Of a DNA stretch of 64,000 nucleotides, positions 41,861-47,209 are shown one piece after another. The position numbers and the translations under genes are program-made. Origin of the DNA: Owenweeksia sp. (GTDB lineage: Bacteria > Bacteroidota > Bacteroidia > Flavobacteriales > Schleiferiaceae); the NCBI GenBank assembly GCA_002695025.1, contig NZNV01000023.1, forward strand, positions 124,001 through 188,000, given 5' to 3'. The notes beneath the pieces were generated by a model. It was not told the origin of the DNA. It saw only the letters and a program-made list of their open reading frames with translations, and did not search any database. Within the stretch, counting starts at the first letter, position 1; every line of letters starts with the position of its first letter.

Positions 41861-41893
41861 GTTGCAAAGTCTTAAAGTTGTAAGGTTGTAAAG
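41861..41893. repeat. Left boundary repeats of the four-helix-bundle unit
   Basis: Three GTTGYAA units (41861, 41877, 41885) just after the sufB stop. The 14-nt AAAGTTGTAAGGTT (41874-41887) matches AAAGTTGAAGGTT in the sufE-sufT spacer with one extra base. Confidence 0.55.
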
Positions 41894-41901
41894 AACTGCA
41901 A

Positions 41902-42330
41902 ATGGGCAAAATCGAAAAGTTTGAGGATTTAAGAATATGGCAACAGGCCAGGGAGCTGTCACAGTGGTTCTTTCATTTAAAGAAGACCTCTGAACTTGGT
42001 TCTGACTTTAAATTATGTGGGCAAGCTGACCGGTCCATTGGTTCTGTTATGGACAATATCGCAGAAGGATTTGAGCGTAATGGCAAAAGAGAATTTCTGA
42101 ACTTTCTTTCCATAGCCAAAGGTTCGGCTGGTGAATTCCGTTCTCAACTTTACCGGATTTACGATAGAATTTACATCAACGAAAAGGAATTGAATCAAAA
42201 ACTGGAGTCTTGCGAGCAATTGAGCAAAGGCATAAGCTCCTTCATGAATTACATAGCTTCAACTGAACTTCCGGGATGGAAGTTTCGCGAAGAGCAGCAA
42301 GAATATAAAAGGCAGGAAGAAAGGCCTTAA
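41902..42330 (+). CDS. Four helix bundle protein (S23/23S rRNA intervening-sequence protein family)
   Basis: 142-residue, almost all-helical protein. The family signature opens FEDLRIWQQARELS; SIGSVMDNIAEGFERNGKREFLNFLSIAKGS and the GEFRSQLYR segment follow. Relatives are encoded in intervening sequences of 23S rRNA genes, and the diversity-generating-retroelement helper Avd has the same fold; the biochemical role is unknown. Here the gene lies between sufB and sufC, which are adjacent in most operons, and is flanked by short repeats. It therefore looks like an insertion that left the operon's reading direction intact. The Lys/Glu-rich tail is variable in the family. Confidence 0.9.
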   Translation: MGKIEKFEDLRIWQQARELSQWFFHLKKTSELGSDFKLCGQADRSIGSVMDNIAEGFERNGKREFLNFLSIAKGSAGEFRSQLYRIYDRIYINEKELNQKLESCEQLSKGISSFMNYIASTELPGWKFREEQQEYKRQEERP

Positions 42331-42356
42331 AACATTGAATCTTTAAAACATTAGAA
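42325..42356. repeat. Right boundary repeats of the four-helix-bundle unit
   Basis: Two tandem 16-nt copies, CCTTAAAACATTGAAT and CTTTAAAACATTAGAA, starting over the gene's own stop codon and ending 7 nt before sufC. AACATTGAA (42331-42339) recurs in the sufE-sufT spacer. Confidence 0.55.
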
Positions 42357-42362
42357 CCAATA

Positions 42363-43118
42363 ATGTTAAAAATAAATAACCTCCATGCCGGGATTGACGG
42401 CACTGAAATTTTAAAGGGAATAGACCTGGAAGTAAAGGCCGGGGAAGTACACGCTATCATGGGACCCAACGGCTCCGGGAAGAGTACCTTATCATCGGTA
42501 ATTGCCGGACGTGAAGAGTACGAGGTTTCCCAGGGGCATATTGATTTTGAGGGTGAGGACATCATGGACCTGGCCCCCGAAGAGCGGGCTCATAAAGGTG
42601 TTTTTCTTTCTTTCCAGTACCCCATTGAAATTCCCGGGGTAACGGTAACCAACTTCCTGAAAACAGCCATCAACGAAACCCGTAAGGCACAAGGCATGGA
42701 TCCCATGCCGGCCAACGAAATGCTGAAGAAGATGCGCGAGAAAATGGCCTTGCTGGAAATGGATAAGGGCTTCCTGAGCCGCTCCTTAAATGAGGGCTTC
42801 TCCGGAGGTGAGAAAAAGCGCAACGAGATCTTCCAGATGGCCATGCTGGAACCTAAACTGGCTATACTGGACGAAACTGATTCCGGGCTGGATATTGATG
42901 CCCTGCGCATTGTAGCTAACGGTGTGAACAAACTGCGGAGCAAGGACAATGCGGTGATCCTCATCACCCACTACCAGCGTCTTCTGGACTATATCGTTCC
43001 GGACGTAGTACACGTGTTACACAAAGGAAAGATCGTAAAGTCAGGCGACAAGAACCTGGCACTGGAGCTTGAAGAAAAAGGTTACGACTGGCTGAAAGAA
43101 AGCGCGAGCACACTTTAA
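42363..43118 (+). CDS. sufC: Fe-S cluster assembly ATPase SufC
   Basis: 251-residue ABC-type ATPase of the SufBC2D scaffold, soluble and not a transporter. Walker A is GPNGSGKST (~38-46), the signature is FSGGEKKRNE, Walker B is LAILDETDSGLDIDAL, and the switch His is in LITHYQRLL. The ATG sits 7 nt after the right repeat of the four-helix-bundle unit. It is 18 nt from sufD. Confidence 0.97.
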   Translation: MLKINNLHAGIDGTEILKGIDLEVKAGEVHAIMGPNGSGKSTLSSVIAGREEYEVSQGHIDFEGEDIMDLAPEERAHKGVFLSFQYPIEIPGVTVTNFLKTAINETRKAQGMDPMPANEMLKKMREKMALLEMDKGFLSRSLNEGFSGGEKKRNEIFQMAMLEPKLAILDETDSGLDIDALRIVANGVNKLRSKDNAVILITHYQRLLDYIVPDVVHVLHKGKIVKSGDKNLALELEEKGYDWLKESASTL

Positions 43119-43135
43119 TCCCAAAAAACCAGGCT

Positions 43136-45699: not shown

Positions 45700-45720
45700 T
45701 TTACACCTTACCTTTACCCC

Positions 45721-46638
45721 ATGAAAAAGTGGATCCTCAAGGCCGTTATCCAGAAAGCGATCTCCTGGTTACCGGCCAGCCAGAATATCAATTTCCTGTT
45801 CCAGAAATATGTTACCAAAGGAGTACGCCTTTCGGACCAATATTTCACCGATAAGCTGGTACACGCTTCGGATCACCTGATGTATTTTCAGAATTACCGT
45901 AAAACCGAAAGTTTTAAAGCCCTGGAACTGGGAAGCGGCTGGTACCCCGTAATTCCGGTTGCTCTGTTTCTGGGCGGTGCCGATGAAGTGGTTTCCATTG
46001 ATGTGAGTGCCCTGATGAAGCGTAAAGGTATCCTTGAAACCGTTCAGAAGTTTCTCAGCTGGCAGGAACAAGGAAAACTGAAGGACCTGGAACCCTATAT
46101 ACAGGCAGAGCGTCTGGAAGCCCTGAAAAAATTGAATAACCCGGCACTGAGTGGCGCGCAACTCCTTGAAGGTTTAAAGCTTACCCTCCAGGTACGCGAT
46201 GCACGGAAAACGGGTTTTGAGGAAAACCATTACGACCTGATTTGTAGCAACAATACCTTTGAGCACATCTACCCGAACATATTACTGCCTATCCTGAAGG
46301 AATTCCAGCGCATTCTCAAACCAGGCGGTGTCATGAGTCACTTCATCGACATGTCAGATCACTTTGCCCACCTGGATGACTCTATATCCATTTACAACTT
46401 CCTGCGTTACAGCGAAAAGGAATGGGCCCGTATTGATAATAACGTACAACCTCAAAACCGCCTGCGCCTGAAGGATTATCGGGAAATGTACCAACAATCG
46501 GGCATTGACATCATCAATGAAAATTACCGTCCCGGCTCGGTGGAGGTTGTAGAGCAAACGGAACTGCACCCGGATTATACCAGTTACACTTCCGAAGAAA
46601 TTGCCATCAGTCACGCTCACCTGGTGAGTACCAAATAG
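45721..46638 (+). CDS. Class I SAM-dependent methyltransferase
   Basis: 305 residues. The Rossmann motif I is ALELGSGWYPVIPV, followed by an acidic Asp in VVSIDVSAL. The post-motif region CSNNTFEHIYPNILLPIL...LKPGGVMSHFIDMSDH is typical of Methyltransf_11-like enzymes. The substrate is unknown. It lies between sufS and sufE in the same direction, 21 nt after sufS, so it is probably carried by the suf transcript. I know no established role for such an enzyme in Fe-S assembly. Confidence 0.85.
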   Translation: MKKWILKAVIQKAISWLPASQNINFLFQKYVTKGVRLSDQYFTDKLVHASDHLMYFQNYRKTESFKALELGSGWYPVIPVALFLGGADEVVSIDVSALMKRKGILETVQKFLSWQEQGKLKDLEPYIQAERLEALKKLNNPALSGAQLLEGLKLTLQVRDARKTGFEENHYDLICSNNTFEHIYPNILLPILKEFQRILKPGGVMSHFIDMSDHFAHLDDSISIYNFLRYSEKEWARIDNNVQPQNRLRLKDYREMYQQSGIDIINENYRPGSVEVVEQTELHPDYTSYTSEEIAISHAHLVSTK

Positions 46639-46727
46639 ATAAACCCTTTATCTCATCTTAAGTACCTTCTATGAACTTTGGTGAGGCGGTTACTCTTTAA
46701 GATATTTGCAAAAGATTATTGGAACTT

Positions 46728-47144
46728 ATGACCATACGTGAAACGCAGGAGGATATAGTAGATGAGTTCGGGATGTTTACGGACTGGATGGAGAAGTATG
46801 AATACCTCATTGAACTGGGTAAGTCATTGCCGCTCATCGATGAACAGTACAAGACCGAAGACAATCTCATTAAAGGCTGCCAGAGCCAGGTATGGCTGCA
46901 TGCCGAACATGAAAACGGCAAAGTAAAGTATACGGCTGATAGTGATGCCATCCTTACCAAGGGGCTGATTGCTCTGATGATCCGCGTTTTAAGCAACCAT
47001 AAACCGGAAGAGATCGTAAAGGCCGACATGAGCTTTATTGACGAGGTAGGCTTGAAAGAACACCTTTCTCCTACCCGCGCCAATGGCCTGGCCAGCATGA
47101 TCAAACAAATGAAATTTTATGCATTGGCCTTGCAGGCCAGGTAG
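46728..47144 (+). CDS. sufE: SufE family sulfur-acceptor protein
   Basis: 138-residue SufE. Its acceptor Cys51 lies in IKGCQSQVWL; EKYEYLIELGKSLP precedes it, and FYALALQAR ends the protein. It takes persulfide from SufS and passes it to SufB. The ATG of MTIRETQ was preferred over a TTG three codons upstream. It is separated from sufS by the methyltransferase gene and from sufT by a spacer with paired inverted repeats. Confidence 0.95.
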   Translation: MTIRETQEDIVDEFGMFTDWMEKYEYLIELGKSLPLIDEQYKTEDNLIKGCQSQVWLHAEHENGKVKYTADSDAILTKGLIALMIRVLSNHKPEEIVKADMSFIDEVGLKEHLSPTRANGLASMIKQMKFYALALQAR

Positions 47145-47147
47145 CTG

Positions 47148-47209
47148 AAAGTTGAAGGTTATATGTTCAAAGTTTTTCCAACCTTCAATCTTAAACTTTT
47201 AACATTGAA
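47148..47209. repeat. Interleaved inverted repeats in the sufE-sufT spacer (empty form of the four-helix-bundle unit?)
   Basis: Two inverted-repeat pairs in the order A-B-A'-B'. A is AAAGTTGAAGGTT (47148-47160) and pairs with AACCTTCAATCTT (47180-47192), 12 of 13. B is ATGTTCAAAGTTT (47163-47175) and pairs with AAACTTTTAACAT (47193-47205), 12 of 13. The interleaving could form a pseudoknot. The outer boxes match those bounding the four-helix-bundle gene. Confidence 0.6.

Follow-up and report, generated by a model that had tools for sequence, protein, structure and literature searches.

The 64,000-nucleotide stretch of contig NZNV01000023.1 from Owenweeksia sp. that was analyzed here (the window) contains a suf operon in which a small insert separates sufB from sufC. 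The insert consists of a gene for an intervening-sequence protein (IVP, the 23S rRNA intervening-sequence protein of family PF05635/TIGR02436, also called S23) and two short repeat arrays, termed arms, on either side of it. It probably belongs, in degenerate form, to a widespread class of mobile units in which an IVP gene lies between convergent, complementary arrays of about 7-nt (sometimes 8-nt) units, and which resemble the intervening sequences (IVS) of 23S rRNA but are found outside rRNA. Evidence mostly from loci other than that of the window showed that arms and gene move together as one unit.

An IVP gene between inverted arrays in the suf operon

A first-pass annotation of the window had placed a four-helix-bundle gene of the S23 type between sufB and sufC, with repeats on both sides, and both statements were confirmed. 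The encoded protein passes the cut-offs of PF05635 (98.2 bits, cut-off 33.8, E 4e-28) and TIGR02436 (93.2 bits, cut-off 24, E 1.1e-26), and 2GSC (XCC0516, E 7e-7) is its only match among sequences of solved structure at E 0.01. The flanks of the gene (41861 and 42300) are the two most 8-nt-periodic 50-mers in the 64 kb. Compared with 2000 shuffles for each test, the 8-nt lag has a p-value of 0.0005 in the left arm and 0.0015 in the right arm (0.0095 over lags 5-12). The stop codon falls within the right arm. Contrary to the earlier proposal of two distinct fixed boxes that point the same way, the arms are inverted: positions 41861-41891 and 42327-42357 are 71% complementary and built of degenerate 8-nt units, and the match of the left arm to the reverse complement of the right arm (p 0.0055 in shuffles) is weaker than in the class. 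No rRNA match was found within the window, and the insert is not located inside a 23S rRNA gene.

The gene-less spacer between sufE and sufT, in which similar motifs had been noticed, is indeed the most 7-nt-periodic 50-mer of the window (47143). Its 7-nt units reverse in the middle of the spacer, and positions 47148-47167 and 47180-47199 are 75% complementary. The 7-nt lag was reached in 0 of 2000 shuffles, and the inverted match has a p-value of 0.017. The letters that the two spacers have in common (AAAGTTG-AAGGTT, p 0.02; AACATTGAA, p 0.07; shuffles) are weaker evidence than their common architecture. The two spacers had been interpreted as a full and an empty copy of one unit; filled and empty alleles do exist at other sites (see below), but it is no more than suggestive that the gene-less array represents an empty copy of the very unit found between sufB and sufC.

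Complementary arms and the 7-nt period across IVP loci

To compare arms, 150-160 nt were taken on either side of the coding sequence, and the stretch preceding the start codon was aligned locally with the reverse-complemented stretch following the stop codon; as a null the same left flank was paired with the right flanks of other loci. Sampled genomes and loci carry G and L labels, G000 being the window genome. The loci are mostly best-scoring matches and not a random draw, and orthologs are included; since they are thus not independent, p-values over loci or pairs are too small. Before counting, L022 (no open reading frame (ORF) found), L015 and L029 (short flanks) were removed from the set of 117 loci, L187, L196 and L217 from the set of named loci and L339 from the Gammaproteobacteria set. 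L128 of the phylum sample and L200, a Balneolaceae record, are one locus from two collections, which suggests that the phylum is Bacteroidota; it is counted twice in the tests of own partners, RNA duplexes, same-genome units, different-host-site pairs and arm similarity by identity. L319-L322 are L231, L197, L214 and L211 fetched again, and L319 is counted with the Gammaproteobacteria and, as L231, with the other phyla. The 72 control ORFs come from mechanical calling, and some of them may be spurious.

In the first set, own arms scored 28.2 on average compared to 16.2 for the null, with the own partner ranked first at 27 of 51 loci and in the top tenth at 39. At the 117 IVP loci of the same phylum the means were 27.7 for own arms and 16.1 for arms of other loci; 47 of these loci, but 0 of the 72 control ORFs, exceeded the 99th percentile of the null (25/69 in the second part of the set alone). 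Matches in the same orientation did so at 6 of the 117. These counts support the earlier proposal of a repeat-bounded modular unit, with or without a gene, that has a preference for operon spacers. IVP genes were present in 116 of the 148 sampled genomes of the phylum. That the arms are nothing but ordinary operon hairpins or low-complexity spacers is very improbable: their AT-rich letters and the near-zero folding z-scores of the two window spacers would agree with this, but the control ORFs as well as the filled and empty alleles and the arm-bounded homology found elsewhere contradict it, and the same-genus genome G001 has a sufB-sufC spacer of 69 nt without an IVP gene.

Periodicity was examined at 69 IVP loci, where the values were +0.068/+0.069 at lag 7 and +0.052/+0.052 at lag 14, compared to -0.012/-0.006 at lag 7 in controls; other lags were small, with lag 8 slightly raised in some sets. 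The best period was 7 in 69 left and 68 right flanks of the 117 loci and 8 in 17 and 16, respectively. The 7-nt period was found in every IVP set tested, that is in Bacteroidota, other phyla, Gammaproteobacteria and cyanobacterial plasmids. Among named loci, 21/52 from Bacteroidota and 9/25 from other phyla exceeded the 99th percentile, the latter with own arms at 31.5 versus 15.9; "other phyla" is a label taken from record titles and includes two Ignavibacteria, which some taxonomies count as Bacteroidota. PF05635 matches were found in 55 of 276 Gammaproteobacteria genomes, 50 over the cut-off and five below it (G366 among them). The 31 gammaproteobacterial loci gave own arms of 33.9 versus 15.8 and lag-7 values of +0.150/+0.143, and 12 of them exceeded the 99th percentile in inverted and 3 in direct orientation. 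At nine loci on cyanobacterial plasmids own arms scored 34.4 versus 16.8, with a same-orientation mean of 27.8. A location of the stand-alone IVP genes in rRNA was considered and rejected, with no rRNA match at 20 IVP loci labelled other phyla.

Arms match their own partner and not a common end sequence

For a comparison within host spacers, 198 loci were grouped solely by their downstream neighbour (22 groups, 91 scored loci). The own partner arm scored 29.6 compared to 20.5 for arms that other genomes carry in the corresponding spacer, and it was the better one at 76 of the 91 loci. IVP genes at one host spacer in different genomes carry different units. Units are likewise not shared within a genome: 69 pairs of IVP loci from the same genome scored 19.5 and 1019 pairs from different genomes 19.4 (p 0.36). 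Thus conserved terminal boxes, as expected by the first-pass annotation, were not found and fixed boxes were rejected, the IVP loci of one genome having no common units; the flanks of other IVP genes have the architecture in common, but not the letters. Conserved are the period, the inversion and the match to the own partner, not the end sequence. Predicted RNA duplexes of own arms were the best of 21 at 68 of 193 loci (9.2 expected).

It is unlikely that the units simply are binding sites of the IVP, for instance one per protomer of a pentamer, which would serve autoregulation or DNA or RNA binding and whose inversion would reflect the symmetry of the complex. A constant period with variable sequence would be in line with this, as would the homopentameric toroid described for a Xanthomonas relative (PMC4990558, excerpt) and the association of arrays and IVP across Gammaproteobacteria (see below); however, the unit is not tied to the protein sequence, IVPs of the same spacer differing in their units, and binding alone does not predict that the two arms match each other.

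The arms are polar in composition. Left arms contain 8% C and 26% G and right arms are the mirror image; G exceeds C in the left arm of 43 of 47 IVP loci, and in comparison with the gene, C is scarce in left arms and G in right arms. The IVP protein is under purifying selection: 25 pairs could be used and gave dN/dS values of 0.02-0.21 (median 0.08); the pair from suf, L003/L038, is saturated. With mechanically called ORFs, the upstream neighbour is co-directional with the IVP gene in 96 of 108 called cases and the downstream neighbour in 61 of 86. Plasmid copies lie in cas6-cas4 and cas10-cmr3 spacers of cyanobacterial CRISPR-cas operons (L392, L393, L400), and some are located between genes of opposite strand. 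Recurrent IVP insertion was observed in one gammaproteobacterial spacer (L328, L342, L348, L351, L353, L354, L355 and L359), which is bordered by the end of a ribosomal-protein-like gene and mostly by tRNA-like sequence on the other side. By its end letters this gene looks like rpsI.

Filled and empty alleles and one element at several sites

Plasmids were searched with the IVP protein of L005, which matched 34 records; most of the named ones are cyanobacterial, and four are from Riemerella. The same protein had no match in 50,697 phage records, and a phage origin was rejected for that reason. The suggestion that the unit is small and mobile is supported by filled and empty alleles and by arm-bounded homology at three unrelated sites.

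In Nostoc sp. ATCC 53789, plasmid pNsp_a contains 418 nt at a place where pNsp_c contains 1 nt, and the insert interrupts the stop codon of the preceding gene and restores it as TAA. A different unit of 503 nt is present one spacer further on in pNsp_c and absent there from pC052_A of Nostoc C052. No annotated IVP was found at either place in pNsp_b, in p057_H of Nostoc C057 or in pC052_A. Further pairs are Calothrix brevissima and Tolypothrix (518 vs 11 nt), Aulosira and Tolypothrix (419 vs 16 nt), Picosynechococcus 7003 and 7002 (558 vs 142 nt), and Anabaena sp. 90 and Dolichospermum, with 849 nt vs 273 nt of unrelated sequence between flanks of 98-99% identity. One element was found at unrelated sites in Aulosira plasmid 2, Nostoc pNsp_a and Trichormus plasmid C (Aulosira vs Trichormus 82.8% over 416 nt). 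Homology among the copies sets in with the left arm and does not extend beyond the end of the right arm, within which the coding sequence terminates, as in the window copy.

Across 168 IVP pairs of at least 60% identity with different host sites on both sides, the arms were unrelated on average (19.7, 20.8), but the three most similar of these pairs share arm units (L194/L195, 86%; L135/L260, 72%; L189/L190, from KSB1 and Nitrospirae, 69.6%). L198 was omitted from this comparison because its flank is short. With increasing IVP identity, in bins from 25-40 to 70+, arm similarity was 16.0, 16.2, 17.0, 20.2, 26.2 and 58.9; the top bin consists of six pairs, two of which (L100/L121 and L090/L113) probably occupy the same site.

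These data also bear on a DNA element of the miniature inverted-repeat transposable element (MITE) kind, with the arms as terminal inverted repeats, a transposase acting in trans, the IVP as passenger or helper and RNA pairing incidental, which we consider possible but doubtful. The precise alleles of 418 and 1 nt speak for it, together with the terminal inverted arms and the letters TTCTA on both sides of the 418-nt insert, although the right-end letters recur in a related copy elsewhere. The existence of gene-less arrays and the higher frequency of IVP genes in genomes with heptamer patterns (see below) can also be read this way. On the other hand, no consistent target duplication was seen, the ends are not conserved in sequence even within one genome, and neither the polarity of the arms nor the co-direction with the upstream gene is expected of DNA ends alone.

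The window genome and the suf operons of its relatives

The window genome contains three PF05635 genes, located before fabD (L001), in the folD-ffh spacer (L002) and in the suf operon (L003). Their flanking arrays differ in units, with inverted scores of 22, 60 and 21. We sampled 384 kb of this genome, deliberately including all three loci; of the nine segments that reach 0.54 or more at lag 7 or lag 8, six are IVP arms or the spacer between sufE and sufT. At lag 7, the highest values belong to both arms of the contig 16 IVP, the right arm of the contig 3 IVP and the sufE-sufT spacer. At lag 8, an arm of the suf IVP ranks first, and the opposite arm of this IVP ties for second place at 0.54 with one more segment.

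As the first-pass annotation had advised, presence and absence between sufB and sufC were compared among relatives, showing that the gene is not fixed there: of the 30 sufC loci examined, three carry the insert (G000, the own genome, and G002 and G018). One of the 30 loci, L077, has no sufB upstream. Long sufB-sufC spacers without IVP were found in G017 (961 nt) and G023 (739 nt). By eye, G005 has a gene-less inverted array between sufB and sufC, G020 has an array there plus a broken IVP gene directly after sufC, and G023 has an IVP gene with an internal stop before sufB. The 739-nt spacer of G023 is occupied by a GxxExxY gene (G023:C2:720416-720748).

At 20 sufT loci, two of which have an upstream boundary other than sufE, the spacer corresponding to sufE-sufT measured 74 nt in G000, 58 nt in G002, 53 nt in G005, 91 nt in G004, 129 nt in G020 and 0-24 nt in 13 genomes. 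The array of G002 is related to that of G000, and G005 has a different 7-nt unit. The spacer of G020 (L290) contains a palindrome, ACCATATAAGTTCAT ... ATGAACTTATATGGT by eye, without evident 7-nt units.

PF05635 proteins resemble Avd of the diversity-generating retroelements (DGRs; PMC10053308, excerpt), and the IVP could be an Avd-like part of such an element, working with a reverse transcriptase. This is extremely unlikely: the window genome, unlike the setting of Avd, is without an RVT_1 (PF00078) match, as are G002, G005, G018 and G020, each of these five genomes having 3 to 8 PF05635 matches, and RVT_1 was found in only 7 of 31 relatives, which contradicts a DGR unless a very divergent reverse transcriptase escapes PF00078. 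An Avd-like reverse transcriptase in trans was rejected as well, 24 of the 31 relatives, several of them carriers, having no RVT_1.

Gene-less heptamer arrays and IVP genes

Gene-less arrays were rare in the sampled stretches of the window genome and of G005, G016, G013 and G003, and the idea that they are abundant elements of the window genome was rejected on this basis. In Gammaproteobacteria we searched for heptamer patterns, namely a triple repeat of GGGANTN and its reversed reading, which is itself 7-nt periodic; not all units are represented by these patterns. They were found in 21 of 276 genomes. IVP genes were present in 13 of these 21 and in 42 of the 255 without pattern (p 1.2e-5), and in all six genomes with at least 20 matches. 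In G398, which has one IVP gene, a GGGAATA array occurs at at least four other places, one of them (L363) an inverted pair by eye. The association of pattern and IVP fits, but does not prove, a dependence of the arrays on the IVP.

Beyond this, we tentatively suggest a mobile-unit class across phyla with ends set by period and mutual complementarity, whose IVP maintains or spreads the arrays, so that the heptamer repeats of Xanthomonas, Nostoc and Beggiatoaceae and of the trnL P6b stem would be gene-less products in trans; this is a possible extension and not our favoured claim. Units of gene plus arms may be the source of part of the seven-letter repeats that are still unexplained in bacteria.

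Some other arrays were noted. In G005 (L303:12480-13010), inverted 8-nt arrays about 490 nt apart surround CGCAAAG-type repeats; no ORF longer than 60 aa lies wholly inside, and the region is a gene-less composite of two arm types. GxxExxY (TIGR04256) genes, picked by motif, were present in 49 of 99 genomes of the phylum and often lie between inverted arrays, which are mostly of the CACAGAG type and not 7-nt periodic (L151-L180). At a score of at least 27, 18 of 30 such loci were inverted (null 4.4%) and 7 direct, with mean scores of 30.0 inverted and 30.8 in the same orientation.

Proposed mechanism and points against it

We propose that an IVP unit would be transcribed together with the host operon and that its arms would pair into a stem with the IVP gene in the loop. 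By analogy to the IVS of 23S rRNA, a cut of the RNase III type could then free the host cistrons, and therefore insertion would be nearly harmless. The arms might stay matched by selection for pairing, by slippage and template switching inside the hairpin, or by both. The IVP protein, whose solved relative is homopentameric, probably binds the arms or their RNA, and gene-less arrays such as the one between sufE and sufT would be gene-less relatives or decayed copies.

Several observations weigh against this interpretation. The copy in the window is a weak example: the predicted RNA folds of the two window spacers are not unusually stable (z -0.44 and +0.55), and an advantage of the own partner is not seen in the three suf copies (own 21, 14, 15; cross 17.8, 18.8, 16.5). 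At 70 of the 117 IVP loci, the suf copies among them, own arms are not above the 99th percentile, and the arrays of a Pseudanabaena plasmid IVP (L393:1400-1950) are long and direct instead of inverted (AAAAGCT / AAAAGCC). Several of the filled and empty pairs are unclean, with 11 to 273 nt of other sequence replacing the insert. The IVP of L198 is 91% identical to that of L194, but its flanks are in one orientation by eye, and its left arm is unlike that of L194 (21) while the right arms are alike (41); compared to L195 (86%), the right arm scores 37 and the left arm 16. Among the Gammaproteobacteria with heptamer patterns, 8 of 21 have no PF05635 match (G254, G266, G222, G237, G364, G419, G449, G453). 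Finally, duplex energies show no preference for the sense strand (94/193) and left arms are not less self-folding on it, and since both are without sense-strand bias the G/C polarity is unexplained; avoided self-folding of the sense strand was rejected as its cause, the folding comparison being unsupportive.

Features of the window

Coordinates are collected in Table 1. A gene with a methyltransferase domain (45721-46638) is located between sufS and sufE inside the suf operon, and a DUF805b RNA was detected on the minus strand at 52705-52737 with 37.1 bits, barely over the gathering score of 35.6.

Table 1. Positions of the two arrays, the IVP gene and the neighbouring suf genes in the window
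Feature	Position	Strand	Basis
sufB, host gene upstream of the IVP insert	40411-41850	+	PRK11814, E 7.4e-275
Left arm	41861-41894	+	Four ~8-nt units AGTTGCAA AGTCTTAA AGTTGTAA GGTTGTAA; lag 8 p 0.0005
IVP gene, 142 aa, PF05635/TIGR02436 four-helix-bundle protein	41902-42330	+	Profile matches
Right arm, inverted relative to the left arm	42323-42357	+	Periodicity, shuffle tests
sufC, host gene downstream of the IVP insert	42363-43118	+	TIGR01978, 371.3 bits, cut-off 212.8
sufE, host gene upstream of the gene-less array	46722-47144	+	PF02657, E 3.6e-49
Gene-less array between sufE and sufT, left half (7-nt units)	47143-47175	+	Periodicity, shuffles
Gene-less array between sufE and sufT, right half (inverted)	47180-47210	+	Complementarity, shuffles
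sufT-like gene downstream of the gene-less array	47219-47539	+	TIGR02945, 147.3 bits, cut-off 143.4

Comparison with known systems

The papers compared here are represented by excerpts. Among the matches listed from the open-licence literature, which does not cover subscription journals, no description of stand-alone IVP units with repeat arms was found; a CRISPR survey mentions PF05635 in one of its figure legends (PMC10910872). Many bacterial genomes have an excess of heptameric repeats, on which there is "no detailed literature" (PMC4692102). Like the IVP arms, the repeats of Xanthomonas (GGGAATC) and Nostoc (GGGGA(C/T)T; PMC4692102) and of Beggiatoaceae (TAACTGA; PMC4679880) have 7-nt units and are mostly intergenic, and two Xanthomonas genomes contain 70 and 75 convergent inverted heptamer pairs (PMC4692102). 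The excerpts of PMC4692102 and PMC4679880 describe no gene associated with the heptamers; "four helix" occurs in neither paper, "S23" not in PMC4679880 and "intervening" not in PMC4692102. Linking IVP genes and heptameric repeats makes both testable. In the P6b stem of the Nostoc trnL group I intron, 7-nt motifs (TDNGATT or NNTGAGT) have been repeatedly replaced, and mobile elements were raised as a possibility (PMC4476775). Unlike the IVP units, this stem lies inside a self-splicing intron, and the excerpt mentions no gene inside it (PMC4476775).

Repetitive extragenic palindromes with their associated transposases (REP/RAYT) and MITEs are, like IVP units, small palindromic intergenic units, some of them without genes. 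Both have conserved end sequences and a known type of transposase, REP/RAYT being defined by a GTAG-type tag and a Y1 transposase. The ends of IVP units differ from these in keeping the period and not the sequence, although terminal inverted repeats are present.

The IVS in the 23S rRNA of Coxiella (428 nt) and Leptospira carry an S23/IVP ORF, whose protein has no known function; their complementary borders are cut by RNase III, and they are regarded as parasitic (PMC4990558). The units described here resemble them in protein family, in complementary borders (47/117 vs 0/72) and in size, but are located in spacers of protein operons instead of rRNA, have locus-specific arm units of 7-8 nt and often occur in several copies per genome. 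We do not class the IVP unit as an IVS because it lies outside rRNA, though it may work alike. The likeness suggests how a selfish unit could enter suf spacers, sites before fabD and plasmid cas operons. Taken together, the IVS of 23S rRNA are the nearest known kind to the IVP units, which extend IVS-like elements from rRNA to mRNA operons.

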